From Calditrichota bacterium (GTDB taxonomy: Bacteria > Calditrichota > Calditrichia > JAJRVZ01): a DNA stretch of 38,926 bases. The stretch is from the NCBI GenBank assembly GCA_024277055.1, contig JAJRVZ010000147.1, positions 1 to 38,926 of the forward strand, written 5' to 3'. Each line of letters opens with the position of its first letter. Position 1 is the stretch's first letter. Below the pieces are notes generated by a model. It did not search any database and was not told the DNA's origin. It saw only the letters and a list, made by a program, of their open reading frames with translations. Shown here piece after piece: positions 16,738-26,878 of this stretch. Position numbers and translations under genes: made by a program.

Positions 16738-16779
16738 GGGCGGTTTGAAATTTATTTTTCAGGCCGCCGCTTTTTTTTT
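16738..16779 (+). terminator. Intrinsic terminator after adk
   Basis: Stem GGCGG with CCGCC, a 2+2 internal loop, an inner TGAAA/TTTCA stem, loop TTTATT, then GC and a run of nine T at 16771-16779. An overlapping alternative stem (AAACCGC/GCGGTTT at 16726-16747) could compete. It ends the rlmN-adk unit. Confidence 0.85.
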
Positions 16780-16877
16780 GAAAATTTTATTCCTCCAAAA
16801 TTGGCTTGATAATAAATATCCGCTAACCTACCTTAAACGGTGTGTATTTCAGTTGCTTATACGTTTTTTTTAGGGTG

Positions 16878-18167
16878 ATGACGCCGGTGTATCCCGTACA
16901 AAAATATTTACTGACAATCTTTTTTCTCTGCCTGGCACTTACAACCTTCTGGCACTGCGCCGAGCGGGAAAAACGTAACCCGCTGGATCCGGACAACCCG
17001 GAGGATAAAGCGCCGGTGAACGTCTGGGTTGTTTCCTATGAAGACAGAATTGTCGTTTCCTGGGACAGTCCCCGTCTGCAGGACATTGAGGGATTTGCAC
17101 TGTACCGCAAAGTGGAACCGGATACGGTCTTTACTCAATATGCTTTTCCTTTGCTGGCTTCACGACGTGAATTTGCCGACTACCACATCGAGTACGGGAA
17201 GCGCCACAGCTATTATGTCACGATTATCGGGCAACAGGATATTGAAAGCAAACCGTCCGAAACGGTTTCCACCGTTCCCGGTCCCGGTTTCAACTGGGTG
17301 GTCGATCGTCATGGTTACCAGATTATGAAATTCACCTATGATGCAGAGCATCGCATATTCCGGATGGATACGCCCCCCGTTCCTGAAGATATTGCCATAA
17401 TTAAAGAAAAAAATATCGGTATGGTCATCTTTTCCGTTTCGGGTTTAATGGAAAGCTTTAATACGGTAACGGGCGGCTGGCTTGAACAGTTTGAAGAAAT
17501 CAGGCACCCATACAGGATTGTAGCCGATAACGAGTTTTTCTGGATCATGGACAGCAGCGGTGCCTTGTACCGGATGAACCCGGATGACAATGATATCCGC
17601 TTGATTCATACAAATCTGTTGCAACCCACGGCCCTGGCCGCCGATACCAGCAATGGAATTATTTACCTGACGGACAGCGGACTGAACCGTGTTTTCCTTT
17701 TCAACAGGCAGGGTCTGCTGTTACGCACCATCGATTCACTGGGCGTTCAACCGTTGAAAGCACCCGAATCCATAGCCGTCAACCCGGTGGGACGGCAGCT
17801 ATGGATTGTAGAAAATGGCAAACAAAAAGATTACATTTATCTCGGTGGACTCAGCGGAAATCAATTCGCACTGGTGGACAGTTTACCGAATGCCGGTGCA
17901 CTGTCGGTCAACCCGCTGGATGGCACTCTGTGGGTTGTTTCACTGGAAGGGTTAAATTCCCGACTGGTGCAACTTTCCCCTGCCGGAACTCGTCAAATGG
18001 AGTTATCCGGATTCTACAATCCGTGGGCAATTCGCGTTAATCCTTACGACGGAACGTTACTAGTGGTGGATACAGGTAATTACAGATTGTTACACTTAAA
18101 CAATCAATTGGACATGATCGGCAAATTTACGAACTTTGTTCTGCCAACCAGGATCGTAATTGAATGA
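16878..18167 (+). CDS. Envelope FN3/NHL-type beta-propeller protein, probable lipoprotein
   Basis: I start at ATG 16878 (429 aa); an in-frame GTG at 16842 would add 12 residues. A hydrophobic leader ends in FWHC (Cys27), a non-canonical lipobox, followed by a charged region and 'NPLDPDNPED', a lipoprotein-type N-terminus common in this group. An FN3-like domain (about 40-120) is followed by repeated strand patterns such as 'LAADTSNGIIYLTDSGLNRV', 'IAVNPVGRQLWIVENG' and 'IRVNPYDGTLLVVDTGNYR', typical of NHL/6-bladed propellers. It should sit in the periplasm or outer membrane. Its stop overlaps the next start as ATGA, so it is translationally coupled to the membrane PP2C gene and could be a sensory or scaffold partner for it. 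The function itself is unknown. Confidence 0.75.
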   Translation: MTPVYPVQKYLLTIFFLCLALTTFWHCAEREKRNPLDPDNPEDKAPVNVWVVSYEDRIVVSWDSPRLQDIEGFALYRKVEPDTVFTQYAFPLLASRREFADYHIEYGKRHSYYVTIIGQQDIESKPSETVSTVPGPGFNWVVDRHGYQIMKFTYDAEHRIFRMDTPPVPEDIAIIKEKNIGMVIFSVSGLMESFNTVTGGWLEQFEEIRHPYRIVADNEFFWIMDSSGALYRMNPDDNDIRLIHTNLLQPTALAADTSNGIIYLTDSGLNRVFLFNRQGLLLRTIDSLGVQPLKAPESIAVNPVGRQLWIVENGKQKDYIYLGGLSGNQFALVDSLPNAGALSVNPLDGTLWVVSLEGLNSRLVQLSPAGTRQMELSGFYNPWAIRVNPYDGTLLVVDTGNYRLLHLNNQLDMIGKFTNFVLPTRIVIE

Positions 18168-20245
18168 AAAAAATTGTTTTATCCGACAAAATAATTATTC
18201 CGCTTATTCTACTGGCAATGGCGACCTCTTTCGCATACGATGTTTTTCGGTTTTACAGCAACATCGATATCCTGTTACTGGCCTATGCTTCCGAAATACT
18301 GATGATCCTTTTGATTGTCGGTTATTATGTATTGCTCAGGCGCCGTCTTTATTTTCAGGATAAATCGGTTCAGGAAAATCTGGCGACCTTTACAAAACTG
18401 CTGGTCGGGCTGTATGCTCTGGTCATCATTATCAAATCGCTGCTCGATCCCAGCTATTCACCGGCTACTTTTCCCCAATCCCCTGAAACACTCGGCAGTG
18501 TGATTTACTCAAACATTATCTCTCTTGTCGCCGTTTTTTTTATGACACCGATCCTGATGATCCTTAAGAATCTGATTTACTACCGTAGAAAAAAAGGCAC
18601 CGTGCGCCTGATGCGTTTATTCCTCGGGACATCGGTGCTTTGTATTCTGTTAACCGTCGGGACACGAACAGCGCTGAATTTTTCATTTTCCGGTGCCGCG
18701 GTGTACAGTAACAGTGTACTGATTGTTGTTCTCATTCTTTCATTTCTGTTATCCCTCAGAAACTCATGGATCACATTTCTGACCAAGAAAGAAAAAGTAT
18801 CATACTTTTTTATTTCAATTTTTATGATATGGGGAGTGCTTTACCTGTTCGATTTTGCATTCTCGGTAGCAGTTCCCGCTCACAGTCTGGCGGTGGGTAC
18901 GTTTACGAATATTACCTGGTACCTGATGGTATCGTACATGATTTTCGGTTCATTTTACCTGCTGTTGCAATTGCCGACGGCCACGGTTTTTGATCGCAAG
19001 ATGAAAGAAGTTTCTTCCCTGCAGGATCTGAGCCGCAGCATCAGCGCCGAATTTGATTTTAACCGTCTGGTAAAACTGATAACCCGGAAAACTTCCGAAG
19101 TAGTCGGAAGTGAATCCGCCTGGCTCGAGTTGCAATCGGACACCGACAACCGTTTTGAGATCGCCTCATCACACAATCTCAGTAACGATATAATAAGGTC
19201 TTTTCAGGAATCCGAACGACAAAAAACCAGCAGGGAGATTATCCGTTCCAAATCCCCACTGCTGGTTAATGAACTGGCAAAGCACGAGCGTTTCAAATCG
19301 CTGAAGGAATGGAAAAAAGACATTGGTTCCATTGTCGGGGTTCCGCTGATCGGTCGCGACGGTAATCCGAGAGGGTTGCTGTTTGCGACGAAACCCAATG
19401 ACTTCGGCTTCGATCCCGATGATGTCACTATGCTGGAAGCCTTCGCCAATCAGGCCATCATGGCCATGGAAAACGCGACGCTGCTGCGCGAATCTTTTGA
19501 CCGCGAACGCATGGAAGAAGAATTACGGATCGCACGGGAAGTGCAACAGCGCCTGCTGCCACAGGAACTGCCGAAATTCGAAGGACTGGAAATAGAATCA
19601 CTGACGATTACCGCCTATGAAGTCGGGGGGGATTATTATGATTTTATCCGCTTGCCGCAGGAACAGGTCGGTTTTATTGTCGGCGATGTCAGCGGAAAAG
19701 GAACTTCAGCGGCGTTTTACATGGCTGAAACCAAAGGTATTGTGCAGTCGCTGGCGCAAAGCTGTTCGGGTCCCCGTGACCTGCTGGTAAAAGTCAATGA
19801 AATTCTTTACCGGTCGATGGACAACAAGACATTTATCAGTATGCTAATGGCTTCAGTGGATTGTAAAAACAGAAAACTGTATTTTGCCCGGGCGGGACAC
19901 TGCCCCCTGCTGTATTACAGTGCACAGAAAAAACAGAGTGAGCTGCTGCAACCGCCGGGAATCGGGGTAGGGCTGGATTCCGGTATAATTTTCAAAGAAT
20001 TACTTGAAGAATACACAATATCCGTGAATGAGGGGGATATTTTCGTTTTTTACACGGACGGATTATCCGAGGCACGTAACGCCAGGGGAGAAGAGTACGG
20101 CGAAGAAAGGTTGTGTGAACTGGTAAAACAGCATGCGGATAAATCGGTCGCGGACTTAAAAGAATTGATTATCGACTCGATCCTGCAGTTTCTCGATGGC
20201 CAGAATTTAAATGACGATCTGACCCTGCTCTTGTTAAAGACGTGA
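18164..20245 (+). CDS. Membrane-anchored GAF-SpoIIE (PP2C) serine phosphatase, RsbU/P-like
   Basis: 693 aa. About eight hydrophobic segments fill the first 270 residues, forming a polytopic sensor region of no recognised family. A GAF domain (about 285-450), a helical linker with 'REVQQRLLPQELP' (the signature preceding SpoIIE-type phosphatases) and the PP2C domain (about 480-693) follow. Metal-binding aspartates are in GGDYYD, GDVSGKG, FYTDGLSEA and DDLTLLLL, all intact. Such enzymes dephosphorylate STAS anti-anti-sigma proteins, releasing them to bind the anti-sigma kinase. The STAS gene lies 74 bases downstream and is the likely substrate. The start overlaps the preceding propeller gene by 4 bases. 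Confidence 0.92.
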   Translation: MKKIVLSDKIIIPLILLAMATSFAYDVFRFYSNIDILLLAYASEILMILLIVGYYVLLRRRLYFQDKSVQENLATFTKLLVGLYALVIIIKSLLDPSYSPATFPQSPETLGSVIYSNIISLVAVFFMTPILMILKNLIYYRRKKGTVRLMRLFLGTSVLCILLTVGTRTALNFSFSGAAVYSNSVLIVVLILSFLLSLRNSWITFLTKKEKVSYFFISIFMIWGVLYLFDFAFSVAVPAHSLAVGTFTNITWYLMVSYMIFGSFYLLLQLPTATVFDRKMKEVSSLQDLSRSISAEFDFNRLVKLITRKTSEVVGSESAWLELQSDTDNRFEIASSHNLSNDIIRSFQESERQKTSREIIRSKSPLLVNELAKHERFKSLKEWKKDIGSIVGVPLIGRDGNPRGLLFATKPNDFGFDPDDVTMLEAFANQAIMAMENATLLRESFDRERMEEELRIAREVQQRLLPQELPKFEGLEIESLTITAYEVGGDYYDFIRLPQEQVGFIVGDVSGKGTSAAFYMAETKGIVQSLAQSCSGPRDLLVKVNEILYRSMDNKTFISMLMASVDCKNRKLYFARAGHCPLLYYSAQKKQSELLQPPGIGVGLDSGIIFKELLEEYTISVNEGDIFVFYTDGLSEARNARGEEYGEERLCELVKQHADKSVADLKELIIDSILQFLDGQNLNDDLTLLLLKT

Positions 20246-20319
20246 TTATTTGTTTAATTTCGGGTCAGAAAATGAAAAATATTGAAATTAAAATGAAATG
20301 CAATTCCGGAGGCTAAAGC

Positions 20320-20667
20320 ATGGAAAATTTTGAAGTAACCCGGGAAGACCAGGGAACTATTTCGATTCTCAGGTTAAAAGGATTTCTGGATGCTCATACG
20401 GCGCCACAATTCGAACAGGCCATTCAGGAACTGGTTTCGGAAAACCGGTTCAATCTGATCGTCAGTATGGCGGAACTGAATTATATCAGCAGCGCCGGTC
20501 TGGGTGTTTTTATGGGATTTATCGAACACATCCGCGAGAATAACGGAGATATCAAACTGGCAAAAATGTCACCGAAGGTTTTTAAAGTATTCGATTTACT
20601 TGGATTTCCCGCCCTGTACCAGATCTGCGATGAGGAAGAAGAGGCTAAAGCAAAATTTTCACGATAA
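20320..20667 (+). CDS. STAS anti-sigma factor antagonist (RsbV/SpoIIAA-like)
   Basis: 115 aa, a single STAS domain of the usual length. The phosphorylation site is Ser58 in YISSAGLGVF, aligned with the DSSG serine of SpoIIAA; Ser replaces the preceding Asp. A strong ribosome site (CGGAGG) precedes ATG 20320. The unphosphorylated form should bind the RsbW-like kinase encoded 50 bases downstream, and phosphatases in the same cluster would regenerate it. The C-terminus is acidic then basic (EEEEAKAKFSR), a minor tail. It is the only STAS protein in the window although three phosphatases surround it. Confidence 0.95.
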   Translation: MENFEVTREDQGTISILRLKGFLDAHTAPQFEQAIQELVSENRFNLIVSMAELNYISSAGLGVFMGFIEHIRENNGDIKLAKMSPKVFKVFDLLGFPALYQICDEEEEAKAKFSR

Positions 20668-20717
20668 TATGCAACACTGTCCCGGTTTATACGCATATTC
20701 ATTATAGGTGGACAAAG

Positions 20718-21161
20718 ATGAAAACAAGAACTCAAAAATTCAGGCTGAAAATACCAAGTTTAACGGAGAATCTTCAGCTGATCCGCGACTTCATTCTGAA
20801 AATCACTGAAAAAGGCGGTTTCGACAGTGAAGTGCAGGAACAGATTGCCCTGGCTGTGGACGAAGCCTGCACCAATGTCATAAAACATGCCCATAAAAAC
20901 AATGCCCGGCGATTGATTGATGTACAGGTACAGCTCGACACACAGAAGATCAAAATTATCATCACCGATAAGGGGGAAGGCTTTGATATTACCAAACTCG
21001 AGAAACCGGATCTGAAAAAATTTACGAAAGAAGCACGACACGGAGGACTCGGAATTTTTCTCATGCGGACGCTTATGGACGATGTCCAGTACGAATTCAA
21101 TCCGGGCGTCAGCAACAAAGTTCAAATGATCAAGTACCGGCAGAATGCCAAAAGTGCGTGA
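20718..21161 (+). CDS. RsbW-like anti-sigma serine kinase (HATPase_c_2)
   Basis: 147 aa GHKL ATPase. The N box is DEACTNVIKHA (Glu49, Asn53), G1 is DKGEGFD and G2 is GGLGIFLM; all nucleotide-binding motifs are present. AGGTGG precedes the start. In the Rsb/SpoIIAB scheme this protein binds a sigma factor or another target and phosphorylates the STAS antagonist. The target is not encoded in the window. It could regulate a sigma factor elsewhere or a non-sigma target, as in several Gram-negative partner-switch systems. The gene end overlaps or abuts the next phosphatase gene. Confidence 0.93.
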   Translation: MKTRTQKFRLKIPSLTENLQLIRDFILKITEKGGFDSEVQEQIALAVDEACTNVIKHAHKNNARRLIDVQVQLDTQKIKIIITDKGEGFDITKLEKPDLKKFTKEARHGGLGIFLMRTLMDDVQYEFNPGVSNKVQMIKYRQNAKSA

Positions 21162-22938
21162 GGTAACCGTGACCGATTTTCTTGCCAGTTTTAAAGACCG
21201 TAATCAGGAAGCCTTACAGGACAGGGACGCCCTTGATCGGCGTCTGATCGAACTGACCGCTCTCTTCGAGATTTCACAAACGATTAATTCTTCTTTGAAT
21301 CTAAAATCCATTCTGGATAATATATTGCTCGTTCCCATGGGACGTATGATGGTAAGCAAAGGTATTATTCTGCTGCATAAATCCGGTAATTGCTTCAGTA
21401 TCGAAACACTGAAAGGATTGCCTTACAATCTGCACGATAAAGAAATTGAAATTAAAAACGTACCCACCCACCCGGTTCAGCTGACCGAAAAAAACAGTGA
21501 TGTTGTCTGGCAGGATATTTTTTCCGAATTCAAAATTGAATTGCTTGTGCCGTTTATTTCGCGCCGGAAAACACTCGGGCTGCTGGGATTTGGAAAAAAG
21601 ATAACCGGTGCGGCCTACACCGAAAGGGAAATTGAGTTTCTGGAAAGCCTGGCAAATATTGCCACCAGCGCCATCGAGAATGCACTTGTTTTTGAAGAAA
21701 TTCAAACCGTTAACCGCGAACTCGACCACAAAATCCAGGAACTGAATACACTTTTCGAAATTGGCAAAGAATTAAACCTGACCCTCGATCGGGATTTGAT
21801 TTTGAAACTGCTCTCCTATGCTTTGATGGGACAGGTGACGGTCAACAATTTTATCATAGGGCTGAAACTCGACGGTAATTATGAACTGGCCATGTCCAGG
21901 GGCAATCTGTTCAAGGATCAGAATGATGAGCGTTGCCGTGAATTATGTGAGAGAAGTTCTTTTGTCGCTGCCCCCTATCAGAATGAGGACATGACCGAAT
22001 TTGATGATTTTCTCAGTGAACTGGGAATTCGCGCCATTATTCCGATGATGATACAAAATGAAACGGGTGGCTATCTATTTCTCGGCGAAAAACTTAATAA
22101 TCAGCCCTATACGGCCGGGGATCTTGAGTTTCTGCAAACCCTGGCAAATATCGCCATTATTTCTCTTGAAAATTCCCGTTTGTTCAAAGAAACCCTCGAA
22201 AAACAGAAACTGGAAGAAGAAATGGCCATGGCCAGTGCCATTCAGGTGGGGCTTTTGCCGAAAGAAATGCCGGATATTGCAGGACTGGATATACACGGAT
22301 TGAATGTACCCAGCAAACATGTCGGCGGCGATTATTATGATATCATTCCCGTGAGTGACGATTTGCTTGCCCTGGTTATCGCCGATGTATCCGGCAAAGG
22401 AATGCCGGCATCGTTGCTGATGTCCAACCTGCAGGCCTCCCTGCATTCCATGATCGGCGTGATCGATCCGCTGGATGTGCTCGTGGGAAAGGTGAACAAC
22501 GTTATTTACCGCAACACAAGCCCGGAAAAATATATCACTTTTTTTGTCGGTGTGCTGAATCTGAAGTCCCTCGAAATGACCTTTGTAAATGCGGGCCATA
22601 ACCCGCCCTACCTGATGCATGCCGACAAATCCATTGATGAACTTACGAACGGCGGTATAATTCTCGGCATGATGCCCGACTATCCGTTTGAAACGGGAAA
22701 AGTAAAACTTAACAAGGGTGACCTGCTGATCATGTTCACCGATGGTGTGACCGAAACCATGGACGAGGATGAAGTCGAATATGAAGAAAAAAGACTGATC
22801 GATTTTATTACCAAGTACGGAGCGAAAAATTCCAGCAGGGAATTAAACGAACGTCTGCTGAAAGAACTCAAGGATTTTTCCGGTGATGTACCCCAGGGAG
22901 ATGATATAACCATCCTGACTCTGAAAGTAAAACAGTAA
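21145..22938 (+). CDS. Soluble GAF-GAF-SpoIIE (PP2C) phosphatase
   Basis: 597 aa from ATG 21145, which overlaps rsbW-like by 17 bases without a ribosome site. A GTG at 21169, just after the rsbW-like stop with GAGG 5 bases upstream, is an equally good start (589 aa). Two GAF-type sensor domains (about 30-185 and 200-345) are joined by helical linkers. A signalling helix with 'AMASAIQVGLLPKEMP' precedes the PP2C domain (375-597), with metal ligands in GGDYYD, ADVSGKG, FTDGVTE and GDDITIL. There are no membrane segments, so it senses a cytoplasmic small molecule or redox state. The likely substrate is the phosphorylated STAS protein of the cluster. Confidence 0.92.
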   Translation: MPKVREVTVTDFLASFKDRNQEALQDRDALDRRLIELTALFEISQTINSSLNLKSILDNILLVPMGRMMVSKGIILLHKSGNCFSIETLKGLPYNLHDKEIEIKNVPTHPVQLTEKNSDVVWQDIFSEFKIELLVPFISRRKTLGLLGFGKKITGAAYTEREIEFLESLANIATSAIENALVFEEIQTVNRELDHKIQELNTLFEIGKELNLTLDRDLILKLLSYALMGQVTVNNFIIGLKLDGNYELAMSRGNLFKDQNDERCRELCERSSFVAAPYQNEDMTEFDDFLSELGIRAIIPMMIQNETGGYLFLGEKLNNQPYTAGDLEFLQTLANIAIISLENSRLFKETLEKQKLEEEMAMASAIQVGLLPKEMPDIAGLDIHGLNVPSKHVGGDYYDIIPVSDDLLALVIADVSGKGMPASLLMSNLQASLHSMIGVIDPLDVLVGKVNNVIYRNTSPEKYITFFVGVLNLKSLEMTFVNAGHNPPYLMHADKSIDELTNGGIILGMMPDYPFETGKVKLNKGDLLIMFTDGVTETMDEDEVEYEEKRLIDFITKYGAKNSSRELNERLLKELKDFSGDVPQGDDITILTLKVKQ

Positions 22939-22945
22939 AACCACC

Positions 22946-23011
22946 GATCGGCAACTGAAAAGCACGGGAATTTCAGGAGCAGGGGCAGCCGACACTTTCA
23001 AATTGCCGATC
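22946..23011 (+). repeat. Long inverted repeat between two phosphatase genes (possible terminator or attenuator)
   Basis: GATCGGCAA at 22946-22954 is the exact reverse complement of TTGCCGATC at 23003-23011. The stem extends inward, after a small bulge, with TGAAA/TTTCA. The roughly 35-base loop is GC-rich and purine-rich. It begins 8 bases after a stop codon; only a weak TTTAAT follows. It separates the second and third phosphatase genes. Confidence 0.5.
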
Positions 23012-23174
23012 TTTAATCGCGAATCCTCAATTATAAATTCAATAATCCCGTTGATATTCAATCACTCGTTGCCTGTTATTCGTTCCGTGCAAATCGGCTT
23101 TGTCGTCCGCCCTTATGGTGTTCGACTAAACCGCTTGCCTGTTTTCGGTCGATTCGATAAATTGATTGTTTTTC

Positions 23175-23180
23175 GGGAGG
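23175..23180 (+). promoter_or_regulatory. Shine-Dalgarno deciding a TTG start
   Basis: GGGAGG lies exactly 5 bases before TTG 23186. It is the only good ribosome site in the open frame, which extends upstream to 23003, and it places the start right before the membrane segments. Confidence 0.75.
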
Positions 23181-23185
23181 AAATC

Positions 23186-25093
23186 TTGAAGCGTTTCCTG
23201 GTAGAATCAGTAATTGTTACCGTTTTATACTTGATCATGGCCCTTGTCATTTACCGACTGGTGCCGTTTTCGTTTCCTGTTGTATTTTTTATTATCCTTC
23301 TTCTCATTGTCGTGACTATTGATTCTCTGCGCGATTTTCTGCGCAAACATTTTACCAGCAGAATCCACCTTTCGTTGTCCAATGCCGAATTTAACCTGAA
23401 TGAATTCAATATTAAACTGAACAGCATTGTCGACTATTACGAGCTTACCGCCCTGCTCTATGCACTGATTGACGATATTCTGCCTGTTCCTCACTGGGCC
23501 TTATATATTCTTGAACAAAAAAACTATCACCTTAAAAAAACAAAATTATACAAGATAAAAACCCGGTTACCGGTGGAAATCGAACCGTTTGAAATAACCG
23601 ATTATCATTCTCCGCTTTATTTGAAAGAAATCTTTCCGGATCAGCAGCTGCCCCCAAAAATAAAAACCCTGCAGGATGCCGGACTCGATGTACTGCTGGC
23701 TTTTCACGGTAAAAGCCGCGGCATCGCCCTGCTTTTCTTTTCATCCGAGAATATGTCACTGTTCCGTGACCGCATTATTCGACCGCTGACCCGCAGGGTG
23801 TTCAGCAAAACAGGGCAAATACTGGAGAATACGGCGCTTTACCTTGACGTCCTGCAATTGAATCTGGAAATAAAAAAACTGTTTGAAGTAAGTCAGAAAC
23901 TCCTGTCCAGCCTGAATACACAGGAAATACTTGAGTTCCTGCTGGATGCACTGGCCGATGTTGTGGCCTTCGACGCCGGTGTAATCTTTTTACTCGACAA
24001 CAAATCCGGCGAACTTATTCAGAAGGTCAGCCGCGGTTACCAGGTCGAAACGGAAGAAATAAATCTGAAACTGGGACAGGGCGCCTGTGGCTGGGTTGCG
24101 GAACACGGCGAACTATCGCTGATAGAGGATGTGAGCAATGCGGAATTCTATTATCCTTTCCGCAAAGAGACACAATCGCAGGTGACTATTCCCCTGAAAA
24201 TCCAGGATGATGTCATCGGTGTCATTTGTCTTGAAAGTGATGATGCGGGACACTTCACCAACGATTCGATTGAATTGCTGATTCTCTTTGCGAATCAGGC
24301 TGCCATCGCCCTTAACAATGCCAAACAATACGAAATATCCATGGCCAAAACACGCCTTGAGCATGAACTGATCGATGCGGCACAGGTACAAAAAGTTCTG
24401 TTGCCGAAACGTCCCCCGGCCTACCGGTCTCTGGAAATCTCCTTTGTCAACATTCCCAGTAAGATAGTCAGTGGAGATCTGTTCGATGTAGTGGCGATTG
24501 ATGATAACCGACTCGGTGTGCTGATCGGCGATATCTCCGGAAAAGGGGCCAGTGCAGCCATTATGATGTCGCTGCTTCTGGCCGGGTTCAGAGCCTATAA
24601 AAAATCCCAGTTCACCGTCTGCGAAGTCGTAGCCAGGCTGAACAATCTCCTGCAGGAAAGCACGAGCGCCGGAAACTATGCCACCTTTTTTTACGGTATT
24701 ATCGATATTCGTAACCGGATGGTCACCTATACCAACGCCGGTCATAATCCCCCTTTGCTCGTTCATGCGGATGGCAGCCATTCGGTACTTTTCGGCGGAG
24801 GACTGGTGCTCGGCTACCTGCCCAACGAGACTTATATTCAAAAGACGGAATCCTTCCTTCCGGGTGATGTACTGGTATTGTATACTGATGGAATAACTGA
24901 GATTCAGAATTCGGGCGGAGAAGAATTCGGAGAGACCAGGCTGCTCGATTTCATTGTTAAAAACCGTGCCCGAACCGCCTTTCAGATAAGGAAAAGAGTA
25001 TTCGATGCAATCCACCGTTTCAGCGACGGCAAAGAGGCCGGCGACGATCTGACCATGGTGGTTGTAAAATTCCTGGAGAACCAGATTCCCTGA
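23186..25093 (+). CDS. Membrane-anchored GAF-SpoIIE (PP2C) phosphatase, TTG start
   Basis: I choose TTG 23186 (635 aa), 5 bases after GGGAGG; the frame upstream overlaps a hairpin and encodes no recognisable domain. Two membrane helices (about 5-25 and 30-48) form a hairpin anchor. A poorly conserved middle region (60-270, possibly a degenerate GAF) is followed by a clear GAF domain (about 285-420, with 'GQGACGWVAEHGE') and the PP2C domain (about 435-635). The metal residues are in SGDLFD, GDISGKG, LYTDGITE and GDDLTMVV. It is a third phosphatase input for the partner-switch cluster. It is separated from the previous gene by about 250 bases and may have its own promoter. Confidence 0.9.
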   Translation: MKRFLVESVIVTVLYLIMALVIYRLVPFSFPVVFFIILLLIVVTIDSLRDFLRKHFTSRIHLSLSNAEFNLNEFNIKLNSIVDYYELTALLYALIDDILPVPHWALYILEQKNYHLKKTKLYKIKTRLPVEIEPFEITDYHSPLYLKEIFPDQQLPPKIKTLQDAGLDVLLAFHGKSRGIALLFFSSENMSLFRDRIIRPLTRRVFSKTGQILENTALYLDVLQLNLEIKKLFEVSQKLLSSLNTQEILEFLLDALADVVAFDAGVIFLLDNKSGELIQKVSRGYQVETEEINLKLGQGACGWVAEHGELSLIEDVSNAEFYYPFRKETQSQVTIPLKIQDDVIGVICLESDDAGHFTNDSIELLILFANQAAIALNNAKQYEISMAKTRLEHELIDAAQVQKVLLPKRPPAYRSLEISFVNIPSKIVSGDLFDVVAIDDNRLGVLIGDISGKGASAAIMMSLLLAGFRAYKKSQFTVCEVVARLNNLLQESTSAGNYATFFYGIIDIRNRMVTYTNAGHNPPLLVHADGSHSVLFGGGLVLGYLPNETYIQKTESFLPGDVLVLYTDGITEIQNSGGEEFGETRLLDFIVKNRARTAFQIRKRVFDAIHRFSDGKEAGDDLTMVVVKFLENQIP

Positions 25094-25222: not shown

Positions 25223-26878
25223 ATGACAGACAGCAACAGAAAAAAAGTCCTTTATATTGAAGACGACGCCGAATCACGTGAATTGATGGCTGACATACTG
25301 CATTTGCATGGCTATCGCTTCCTCGGTGCCTCTCGTGGTCTGGAAGGCATCCGGCTCGCCACCCGGGAATTGCCCAATCTCATTTTAATGGATATGAATT
25401 TACCGGATATGCAGGGCTATGAAGTAACCACGCTGCTCAAATCCATTGACGCCCTGAAAACCGTTCCGGTTATCGCCCTGACCGCTGAAATCGACAAGGG
25501 TGCCCGCGAACGCACGTTGACCGCCGGATGTGACGGTTACATCGCCAAACCGATCAATGTTACAGAATTTGTTCAGCGTATTGAGGAGTATCTGGAAGGC
25601 AGAAAGGATACGCTCGATCCCCGGGAGCAAAGCAAGTATCTCACGGAATACAATATTCGTCTTGTCGAAAAACTGCAAAACAAACTGGAAGAACTGGAAA
25701 AAGTAAACAGCAGTCTTTCGATGATCAATGAAGAACTCACCCAATCACGGGAACAACTGACCGAATACAACAACCGCCTGTTTTATATGAACAACCTGGC
25801 CAACCTGCTACGTATGCAGAAATCGCCGGATGACCTGATCCGCATGCTTCCTCAAAAAATCATTGAAGGTTTTGGAATCGACCGGTGTATTATTTTTGAC
25901 TATGATTCGGAATCGGAAAAGCTTACCAGTATAACCCACGCGGGCATTGCCGGTTTGCGTATTGAGAAACTCAAATTAAAACTGAAAAAAGAATTTTATT
26001 ATCACCTGAAACAGGAAATGAAATTTCTCTGGGTAAAAAGCAAGGAAGAAATCCTCGATCCTTCGCTGCTTAAAGTCGCACAGCATCTTAATTCGATTTC
26101 GTTCGTACTGAGCTGTATCCCCGGTATGGGCAGTTCCGCGGAATCTTCCGGCATATTCCTGGCCATTGCCACTCACGGCGGCCTGGAATCCAGTGAAAAT
26201 ATAAGTATTGAGATTCCGAAAAAAATGATCATTTTTCTGGACCGGGGGTATTCACAAACTCCTTTCGCAACTTATGAAATCCGCATTTTGAAAGCTTTTC
26301 TGCAATCAACCAGTATCATTTATGAAAACATGCTGCTCTATCATAAAATGATGAAGCTGTATCGTATAAAAGAACAGGAAGCCATCACCGATCCGTTGAC
26401 AGGCGCCTACAATTACCGCTTCTTCGCATCGCAGATTGAACGCGAGATCGAGCGCTCGGCCCGGCACAAAAAACCGTTCTCACTGGCCATGATCGATATC
26501 GACAATTTTAAGCAGTATAACGACACCTACGGACATGTAAGCGGGGACAAGGTACTGAAACTGGTGGCCGAGGCACTGGTCAGAAATACCAGAAAATCGG
26601 ATATAGTGGCACGCTACGGCGGGGATGAATTCCTGATTATTCTTCCTGAAATGGGAAAGGATAATGCCAGAACCGTCGCCGAAAAACTTTGCAAGATCAT
26701 AGAAAAAACGAAATTTCCGAGACACCGGACAAAGAAACGGGTAAACCTCACCATAAGTCTCGGAATCGCCAGTTTTCCCGATGACGGTAATAATGAAAGG
26801 GTGTTGTTGAAAAAGGCCGATACGGCGCTTTATGCAGCAAAAGAATCCGGACGCAACACGGTTCGCATCAGTGCCTGA
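25223..26878 (+). CDS. Response regulator with GAF-like and GGDEF domains (diguanylate cyclase)
   Basis: 551 aa. Receiver domain (about 6-125) with phospho-acceptor Asp57 in LILMDMNLP and acidic pocket IEDD; coiled coil (145-190); a GAF-like domain (190-380); and a GGDEF domain (about 395-551). The active site is GGDEF at 466-470, preceded by the substrate signature 'DPLTGAYNYRFF'. An inhibitory-site RxxD (Arg457, Asp460) lies exactly five residues before it, so product inhibition is expected. It makes c-di-GMP from two GTP. No cognate kinase is adjacent. No Shine-Dalgarno is visible at ATG 25223. It follows the PP2C cluster on the same strand, 129 bases downstream. Confidence 0.94.
   Translation: MTDSNRKKVLYIEDDAESRELMADILHLHGYRFLGASRGLEGIRLATRELPNLILMDMNLPDMQGYEVTTLLKSIDALKTVPVIALTAEIDKGARERTLTAGCDGYIAKPINVTEFVQRIEEYLEGRKDTLDPREQSKYLTEYNIRLVEKLQNKLEELEKVNSSLSMINEELTQSREQLTEYNNRLFYMNNLANLLRMQKSPDDLIRMLPQKIIEGFGIDRCIIFDYDSESEKLTSITHAGIAGLRIEKLKLKLKKEFYYHLKQEMKFLWVKSKEEILDPSLLKVAQHLNSISFVLSCIPGMGSSAESSGIFLAIATHGGLESSENISIEIPKKMIIFLDRGYSQTPFATYEIRILKAFLQSTSIIYENMLLYHKMMKLYRIKEQEAITDPLTGAYNYRFFASQIEREIERSARHKKPFSLAMIDIDNFKQYNDTYGHVSGDKVLKLVAEALVRNTRKSDIVARYGGDEFLIILPEMGKDNARTVAEKLCKIIEKTKFPRHRTKKRVNLTISLGIASFPDDGNNERVLLKKADTALYAAKESGRNTVRISA

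Follow-up and report, generated by a model that had tools for sequence, protein, structure and literature searches.

A conserved RsbU/RsbV/RsbW-type gene module of the Calditrichia with two core phosphatases and a client probably encoded in trans

The stretch of DNA analysed here, referred to as the window, is a contig of 38,926 nucleotides (C84) from a Calditrichota bacterium whose draft genome comprises 386 contigs and is 88.8% complete. Along the plus strand of the window lie, in this order, rlmN, adk, a hairpin, an NHL-repeat gene, the phosphatase gene PP2C1, a STAS gene, an RsbW-like kinase gene, the phosphatase genes PP2C2 and PP2C3, and a gene for a receiver-GGDEF protein (Table 1); upp, the next gene, sits on the opposite strand. 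The names rlmN, adk, upp and plsC are presumptive, having been given by eye from the sequence rather than by family search. Judging from its sequence, the hairpin probably marks the upstream edge of the operon.

Table 1. Features of the partner-switch locus and its flanks in the window
Feature	Position	Strand	Evidence
Terminator-like hairpin between adk and the NHL-repeat gene	16739..16768	+	12-bp stem, then GCTTTTTTTT; consensus match only
NHL-repeat protein, hydrophobic segment at N-terminus	16842..18167	+	Pfam NHL E 2e-9
PP2C1, 693 aa: 8 membrane helices, GAF, helical linker, SpoIIE/PPM phosphatase	18164..20245	+	Pfam SpoIIE E 2e-45
STAS protein, RsbV/SpoIIAA-like, 115 aa, predicted phospho-acceptor Ser58	20320..20667	+	Pfam STAS E 1e-17
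RsbW/SpoIIAB-like serine kinase and predicted client binder, 147 aa	20718..21161	+	Pfam HATPase_c_2 E 3e-29
PP2C2, 597 aa: soluble, GAF, weak GAF, SpoIIE/PPM phosphatase	21145..22938	+	Pfam SpoIIE E 2e-46
PP2C3: hydrophobic hairpin, GAF, SpoIIE/PPM phosphatase	23003..25093	+	Pfam SpoIIE E 2e-47
Response-regulator receiver, middle region, GGDEF diguanylate cyclase	25223..26878	+	Pfam Response_reg 3e-22, GGDEF 1e-51

A preliminary description of this DNA had placed three SpoIIE-type phosphatases around one STAS gene and one RsbW-like gene, and the coordinates and Pfam domains agree with it. Its account of the sensors holds for the eight helices and GAF domain of PP2C1 and for the GAF domain of PP2C3. 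In PP2C2 the first GAF domain is clear and the second weak (GAF_3 E 7e-4 on a fragment), and PP2C3 has a single hydrophobic stretch (residues 61-114) of sufficient length for two helices. The STAS/kinase pair is single, as had been stated, within the cluster but not within the genome, which yields 14 SpoIIE, 10 STAS and 5 RsbW-type matches.

The STAS protein scores above the cut-off of the NCBIfam model ant_ant_sig, its nearest solved relatives by sequence are SpoIIAA and RsbV, and the position previously proposed as phospho-acceptor, Ser58, lies in a motif (S57/S58/G60) that is invariant in all 34 orthologues compared. Among solved structures the kinase comes closest in sequence to RsbW of B. 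subtilis (6m36, E 1e-29) and to SpoIIAB, and the top NCBIfam model is RsbW, matched at 104 bits, under its cut-off of 145; the N-box residues E49/N53/H57, the D84-G86-G88 and GGLG motifs and R23 are likewise invariant (34 of 34 orthologues). We take Arg23, from an alignment by eye, to match the position of SpoIIAB Arg20, which reportedly contacts both SpoIIAA and sigma F. In the AlphaFold model of PP2C1 (mean pLDDT 86), eight membrane helices and a GAF domain are joined by a long helix to the phosphatase domain, for which the closest solved folds are RssB, SiaA, Rv1364c and SpoIIE. Its catalytic residues Asp 490, 508, 632, 684 and 685 are invariant in 25 of 25 orthologues, as is the metal-site Asp of PP2C2 in 33 of 33. 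The window thus encodes together a kinase whose N, G1 and G2 boxes are intact and whose gene is adjacent to that of the STAS protein, a STAS protein with a conserved phospho-acceptor serine, and SpoIIE/PPM phosphatases with intact metal-binding Asp residues, which are the constituents of an RsbU-RsbV-RsbW system. In one relative with a complete-looking genome (G004) the PP2C1 gene (L132:10589-12677) is split into two overlapping frames, through a frameshift or a sequencing error.

Loci of the RsbW orthologue were read in 40 Calditrichia genomes, the window genome and 39 others. The order PP2C1-STAS-RsbW-PP2C2 is the same in 33 loci of the class and spans six of its families (f1 to f6); the class genomes that seem to be without the kinase are mostly incomplete assemblies, and in one (G039) a PP2C2 fragment stands at a contig edge, immediately ahead of PP2C3. 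The kinase and PP2C2 genes overlap by 17 nt in the window, and in 24 of 30 relatives they lie no more than 15 nt apart. To extend the comparison to other phyla, 84,980 species genomes were scanned and the best 80 loci kept. By record title these loci belong to Calditrichota, KSB1, Gemmatimonadota, Ignavibacteriota, Chlorobiota, Bacteroidota, Balneolota, Neomarinimicrobiota and Acidobacteriota, and 79 of them carry a kinase gene of the family found in the window. Among these 79 of the best 80, the STAS gene lies directly 5' of the kinase in 77, PP2C-STAS-RsbW is found in 61 and PP2C-STAS-RsbW-PP2C in 51, many of the others ending at a contig edge. The core is present in KSB1, Gemmatimonadota, Ignavibacteriota, Bacteroidota, Neomarinimicrobiota and Acidobacteriota, and since only the best 80 matches were read its true spread must be wider than the phyla listed. 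The genome of the window is rich in SpoIIE, STAS and HATPase genes, so that a chance neighbourhood of unrelated signalling genes might be supposed, but an order kept in 33 class loci and in 51 to 77 of the 79 multi-phylum loci among the best 80 refutes this for the core, and we give it a negligible probability. PP2C1-STAS-RsbW-PP2C2 is the stable unit across the Calditrichia and several phyla.

Upstream, rlmN, adk and the NHL-repeat gene precede the core in most class genomes with sufficient contig, and in the Calditrichia the NHL-repeat gene, translationally coupled, is usually the one directly before the module. Its stop overlaps the PP2C1 start by 4 nt in the window, as it does in 15 of the 21 class relatives, and by 1 nt in four more, and the gene adjoins the module in KSB1 and Neomarinimicrobiota too. 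The encoded protein is a candidate extracytoplasmic partner or sensor for PP2C1.

Downstream of the core, the TTG start of PP2C3 appears to be too early, because the orthologues begin about 60-75 residues later, and the true start probably lies some 170-220 nt downstream. Its phosphatase Asp residues are invariant in all of the 9-10 orthologues compared. Of the 40 class genomes, 37 have a PP2C3 orthologue and 25 have the cyclase. In the window, and in about ten relatives, PP2C3 stands next to the module; the neighbourhood of PP2C3 has no STAS or RsbW gene in G004, G033, G013, G011, G007, G012, G005, G006, G016, G003, G008 and G010, those of G007, G006 and G010 being readable only as far as the contig end. 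The cyclase gene stands behind PP2C3 in f1, in most of f3 and in genus g9, and PP2C3 occurs without it in genus g7, f2, f4 and f6; the idea of a fixed PP2C3-cyclase unit at the module was accordingly dropped. Because it is unlinked from the module and variably paired with the cyclase among the class genomes, PP2C3 is an add-on with its own history, and for that reason it is not counted as a proven third input. The many-input, one-switch device of the preliminary description is thereby upheld for PP2C1 and PP2C2, which stand beside STAS-RsbW across phyla, but not for PP2C3, which lies away from any STAS or RsbW gene in at least 11 of 37 class genomes and is often paired with the cyclase.

A three-input device, with PP2C3 also dedicated to the STAS protein of the module and the cyclase a mere passenger of the operon, is nonetheless a possibility to be taken seriously, if not the one we would expect. 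PP2C3 directly follows PP2C2 here and in about ten relatives, and extra phosphatases are a recurrent feature: contiguous phosphatase genes number from 0 to 4 in the 79 loci among the best 80, with two in 34, three in 24 and four in 5. The third phosphatase varies by lineage, being a protein of about 380 aa in KSB1, one of about 850 aa in Ignavibacteriota and PP2C3 in part of the Calditrichia. The solitary or solely cyclase-linked PP2C3 orthologues of many class genomes speak against such dedication, as does a spacing ahead of PP2C3 (64 nt in the window, where the start is uncertain, and 64-815 nt over the loci compared) that is wider than at the NHL/PP2C1 and RsbW/PP2C2 junctions.

The receiver-GGDEF gene, 129 nt beyond PP2C3 and next on the strand, raises a further question of output. 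With its motifs RKSD, IVARY and GGDEF it has an intact GGDEF and an RxxD, and control of a diguanylate cyclase by a STAS or STAS-like protein has precedent (PMC6482189; PMC8457831), so that the STAS protein, or the kinase, might control the cyclase in the manner of HsbA-HsbD, BgrV-BgrR and SiaC-SiaD. We regard such a c-di-GMP output as improbable, because the cyclase tracks PP2C3 and not STAS/RsbW: families f2, f4 and f6 and genus g7 carry the core without a cyclase at the locus, in G004 (a single contig of 4,978,541 bases) the PP2C3-cyclase pair lies about 65-75 kb from the module, and no cyclase is found at the module in KSB1 or in most Ignavibacteriota and Acidobacteriota loci among the best 80. 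The match to the SiaD model is confined to the GGDEF domain and under the cut-off. The cyclase is thus not conserved with the STAS/kinase pair as it would be in a SiaABCD or HsbRAD system, many core-bearing genomes having none at the module, and a diguanylate cyclase as the ancestral output is disfavoured.

As had been reported in the preliminary description, no sigma gene is found among the cluster genes scanned with Pfam and NCBIfam. That description had also proposed looking through the complete genome for factors of the sigma-B/F type: none of the 40 class genomes has a match above the cut-off of the SigB/F/G-family model TIGR02980 (best 146 bits against 234), a model that exceeded its cut-off in one of 14 named genomes used as positive control, and a SigB-type client was rejected class-wide. 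The window genome has 13 sigma-70 region-2 matches, among them two FliA/WhiG-type factors, one in the flagellar operon (C106) and one orphan. The orphan gene (C46; L068:15231-15989) is not part of the flagellar operon, and its contig also carries an RsbW/STAS pair about 9 kb away. Most class genomes have a factor of this orphan class (235-264 bits). Co-occurrence of module and orphan factor was discarded as uninformative, both being near-universal and their apparent absences tracking the incompleteness of the assemblies. An obligate pairing of the two is doubtful, since at least G007 (96% complete) and G025 (93%) carry the module and a single FliA/WhiG match, of the low-scoring flagellar-type class. 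A search for FlgM gave one match only, which was sub-threshold.

Other partner-switch genes are found in the class. In G034, a class relative, a paralogous and compact cluster reads SpoIIE, RsbW, STAS, sigma-70 (195 aa) and a further gene (L151, G034:C116, 3953-7327). A second cluster in the window genome (C228; L058:1995-8221) combines genes for an RsbW-like kinase and a STAS protein with those for two SpoIIE proteins, one of 1247 aa and the other a phosphatase of 534 aa. An RsbW-SpoIIE fusion of 1081 aa is encoded beside a STAS protein with a C-terminal extension (L150:8021-11990), and long frames of this kind recur through the class; contig C104 of the window genome ends within a SpoIIE gene beside a C-terminally extended STAS gene. 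The RsbW-type gene on contig C254, which in some families is near the gene for a 282-aa RpoD-like sigma factor, was set aside as a different paralogue from the window kinase. Its probable orthologues in families f2 and f4 (L244-L251) lie beside, or one gene from, this probably primary sigma gene, and elsewhere in the class the gene adjoins an mnmA-like gene. Solo STAS proteins and solo phosphatases encoded elsewhere in the window genome could engage in cross-talk with the switch.

Among the best 80 loci, a sigma gene stands at the module in 9 of 79, all within a single Ignavibacteriota clade that has strong support and ten members; the remaining locus is cut off upstream. The sigma gene encodes an ECF factor and lies directly 5' of PP2C1 or one gene away, within a few nucleotides of PP2C1 in two loci. 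This ECF gene is a single derived gain in the Ignavibacteriota. In L211 the gene between ECF and PP2C1 starts like that of a zinc-finger anti-sigma protein, a candidate function that makes the ECF factor uncertain as client even in the Ignavibacteriota. As a client in the window genome the factor was rejected, there being no close orthologue (best 39% identity). In nine Ignavibacteriota loci (L203, L211, L212, L215, L217, L219, L221, L225 and L238) the ECF gene and a purA-STAS pair are oriented divergently, and the window genome also has a purA-STAS pair (C240, L069).

The absence of a sigma gene from every phylum but one Ignavibacteriota clade among the best 80 loci, and of SigB/F/G factors from the 40 class genomes, could mean that the unphosphorylated STAS protein or the kinase binds an effector that is neither a sigma factor nor a cyclase, for which SypA (PMC8256260) and RbaW (PMC3999984), with no known sigma target, are precedents. 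We think this rather unlikely, given a kinase sequence that is RsbW/SpoIIAB-like and the separate switch and sigma loci documented in Streptomyces (PMC3999984). Since genuine sigma systems also separate the two sets of genes, the lack of a sigma gene at the locus proves little, and a sigma client in trans is preferred on three grounds: the likeness of the kinase to RsbW and SpoIIAB, the paralogous sigma cluster of G034, and the known separate loci (PMC3999984). The ECF gene at the module in the Ignavibacteriota clade and the wide occurrence of the orphan FliA/WhiG-type factor in the class also speak for a sigma client. The client is most likely a sigma factor encoded elsewhere and not of the SigB/F/G type, and the non-sigma target raised in the preliminary description is the less probable alternative.

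We favour, with reasonable though limited confidence, the reading that the module is a conserved partner switch of the RsbU/RsbV/RsbW type, fed by two core inputs and acting on a client in trans that is most likely a sigma factor of a type other than SigB. In such a switch, presumably transcribed as an operon, the RsbW-like kinase would phosphorylate the STAS protein at Ser58 and hold the client for as long as STAS stays phosphorylated. PP2C1, in the membrane, would dephosphorylate STAS on its own signal, perhaps tuned by the NHL-repeat protein encoded upstream, and the cytosolic GAF-GAF phosphatase PP2C2 would do so on a separate signal. Unphosphorylated STAS would then bind the kinase and displace the client, a protein encoded outside the cluster. 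PP2C3 and the receiver-GGDEF protein would be a pair that is inherited separately and has become placed behind the operon; PP2C3 may or may not feed the switch. More speculatively, and on balance we would not expect it, the unit could be an ancient switch of Calditrichota, KSB1, Gemmatimonadota, Ignavibacteriota, Bacteroidota, Neomarinimicrobiota and Acidobacteriota in which one membrane and one cytosolic phosphatase became fixed and extras were added by lineage, with a non-sigma ancestral output and the Ignavibacteriota ECF factor as a secondary recruitment.

The literature search, with subscription journals mostly outside its scope, found no description of the module for Calditrichota or relatives, and none of a fixed two-input core across these phyla, of its SigB independence or of lineage-specific extra phosphatases. 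The working of RsbU/V/W-type systems, the convergence of two phosphatases, the GAF-GAF-PPM architecture and STAS-controlled cyclases are already known. What the comparison adds is a unit with two fixed inputs from opposite compartments, its order kept across phyla and a sigma gene almost never adjacent among the best 80 loci. Partner switches are best known from Gram-positive sigma-B and sigma-F systems, and the module offers a good test case for whether they serve chiefly to regulate sigma factors or form a general device that is not tied to one kind of output. The linkage of PP2C1 and PP2C2 as against the unlinked PP2C3 yields a concrete prediction on phosphatase specificity, and the derived gain of ECF in the Ignavibacteriota allows naturally occurring versions with and without a linked sigma gene to be compared.

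Of the known systems, the RsbU/RsbP-RsbV-RsbW-SigB pathway of B. subtilis is similar in its PPM phosphatases, STAS phospho-switch and RsbW kinase, and in having two phosphatases, RsbU and RsbP, that converge on one RsbV (PMC7522486). It differs in that the locus of the module is without a SigB/F/G gene, as are the 40 class genomes, and in that both core phosphatases of the module are encoded inside the operon, with membrane-GAF and GAF-GAF sensors. The cluster has one STAS protein and one RsbW-type kinase, with no RsbT model among the matches, and so does not have the RsbR-RsbS-RsbT make-up of a stressosome. PP2C2 resembles RsbZ of Clostridioides difficile in its tandem GAF-PPM architecture and predicted control through a coiled-coil linker (PMC12143880), although RsbZ acts in a SigB pathway and the window genome is without SigB. 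HsbR-HsbA-HsbD and SiaABCD of P. aeruginosa and BgrV-BgrR of Sinorhizobium are likewise Gram-negative switches, with STAS or STAS-like proteins near or acting on a cyclase; SiaC, however, is a DUF1987 protein whereas the window STAS belongs to PF01740, and the cyclase of the window is linked in relatives to PP2C3 and not to the STAS/kinase pair. SypA/SypE of Vibrio fischeri (PMC8256260) and RbaVW of Rhodobacter capsulatus, where a two-hybrid analysis with RbaW yielded no sigma partner (PMC3999984), share with the module a switch for which no sigma client has been identified. Their sensors and gene order differ from those of the module, and SypE combines in one protein the kinase and phosphatase parts that are encoded by separate genes in the window.
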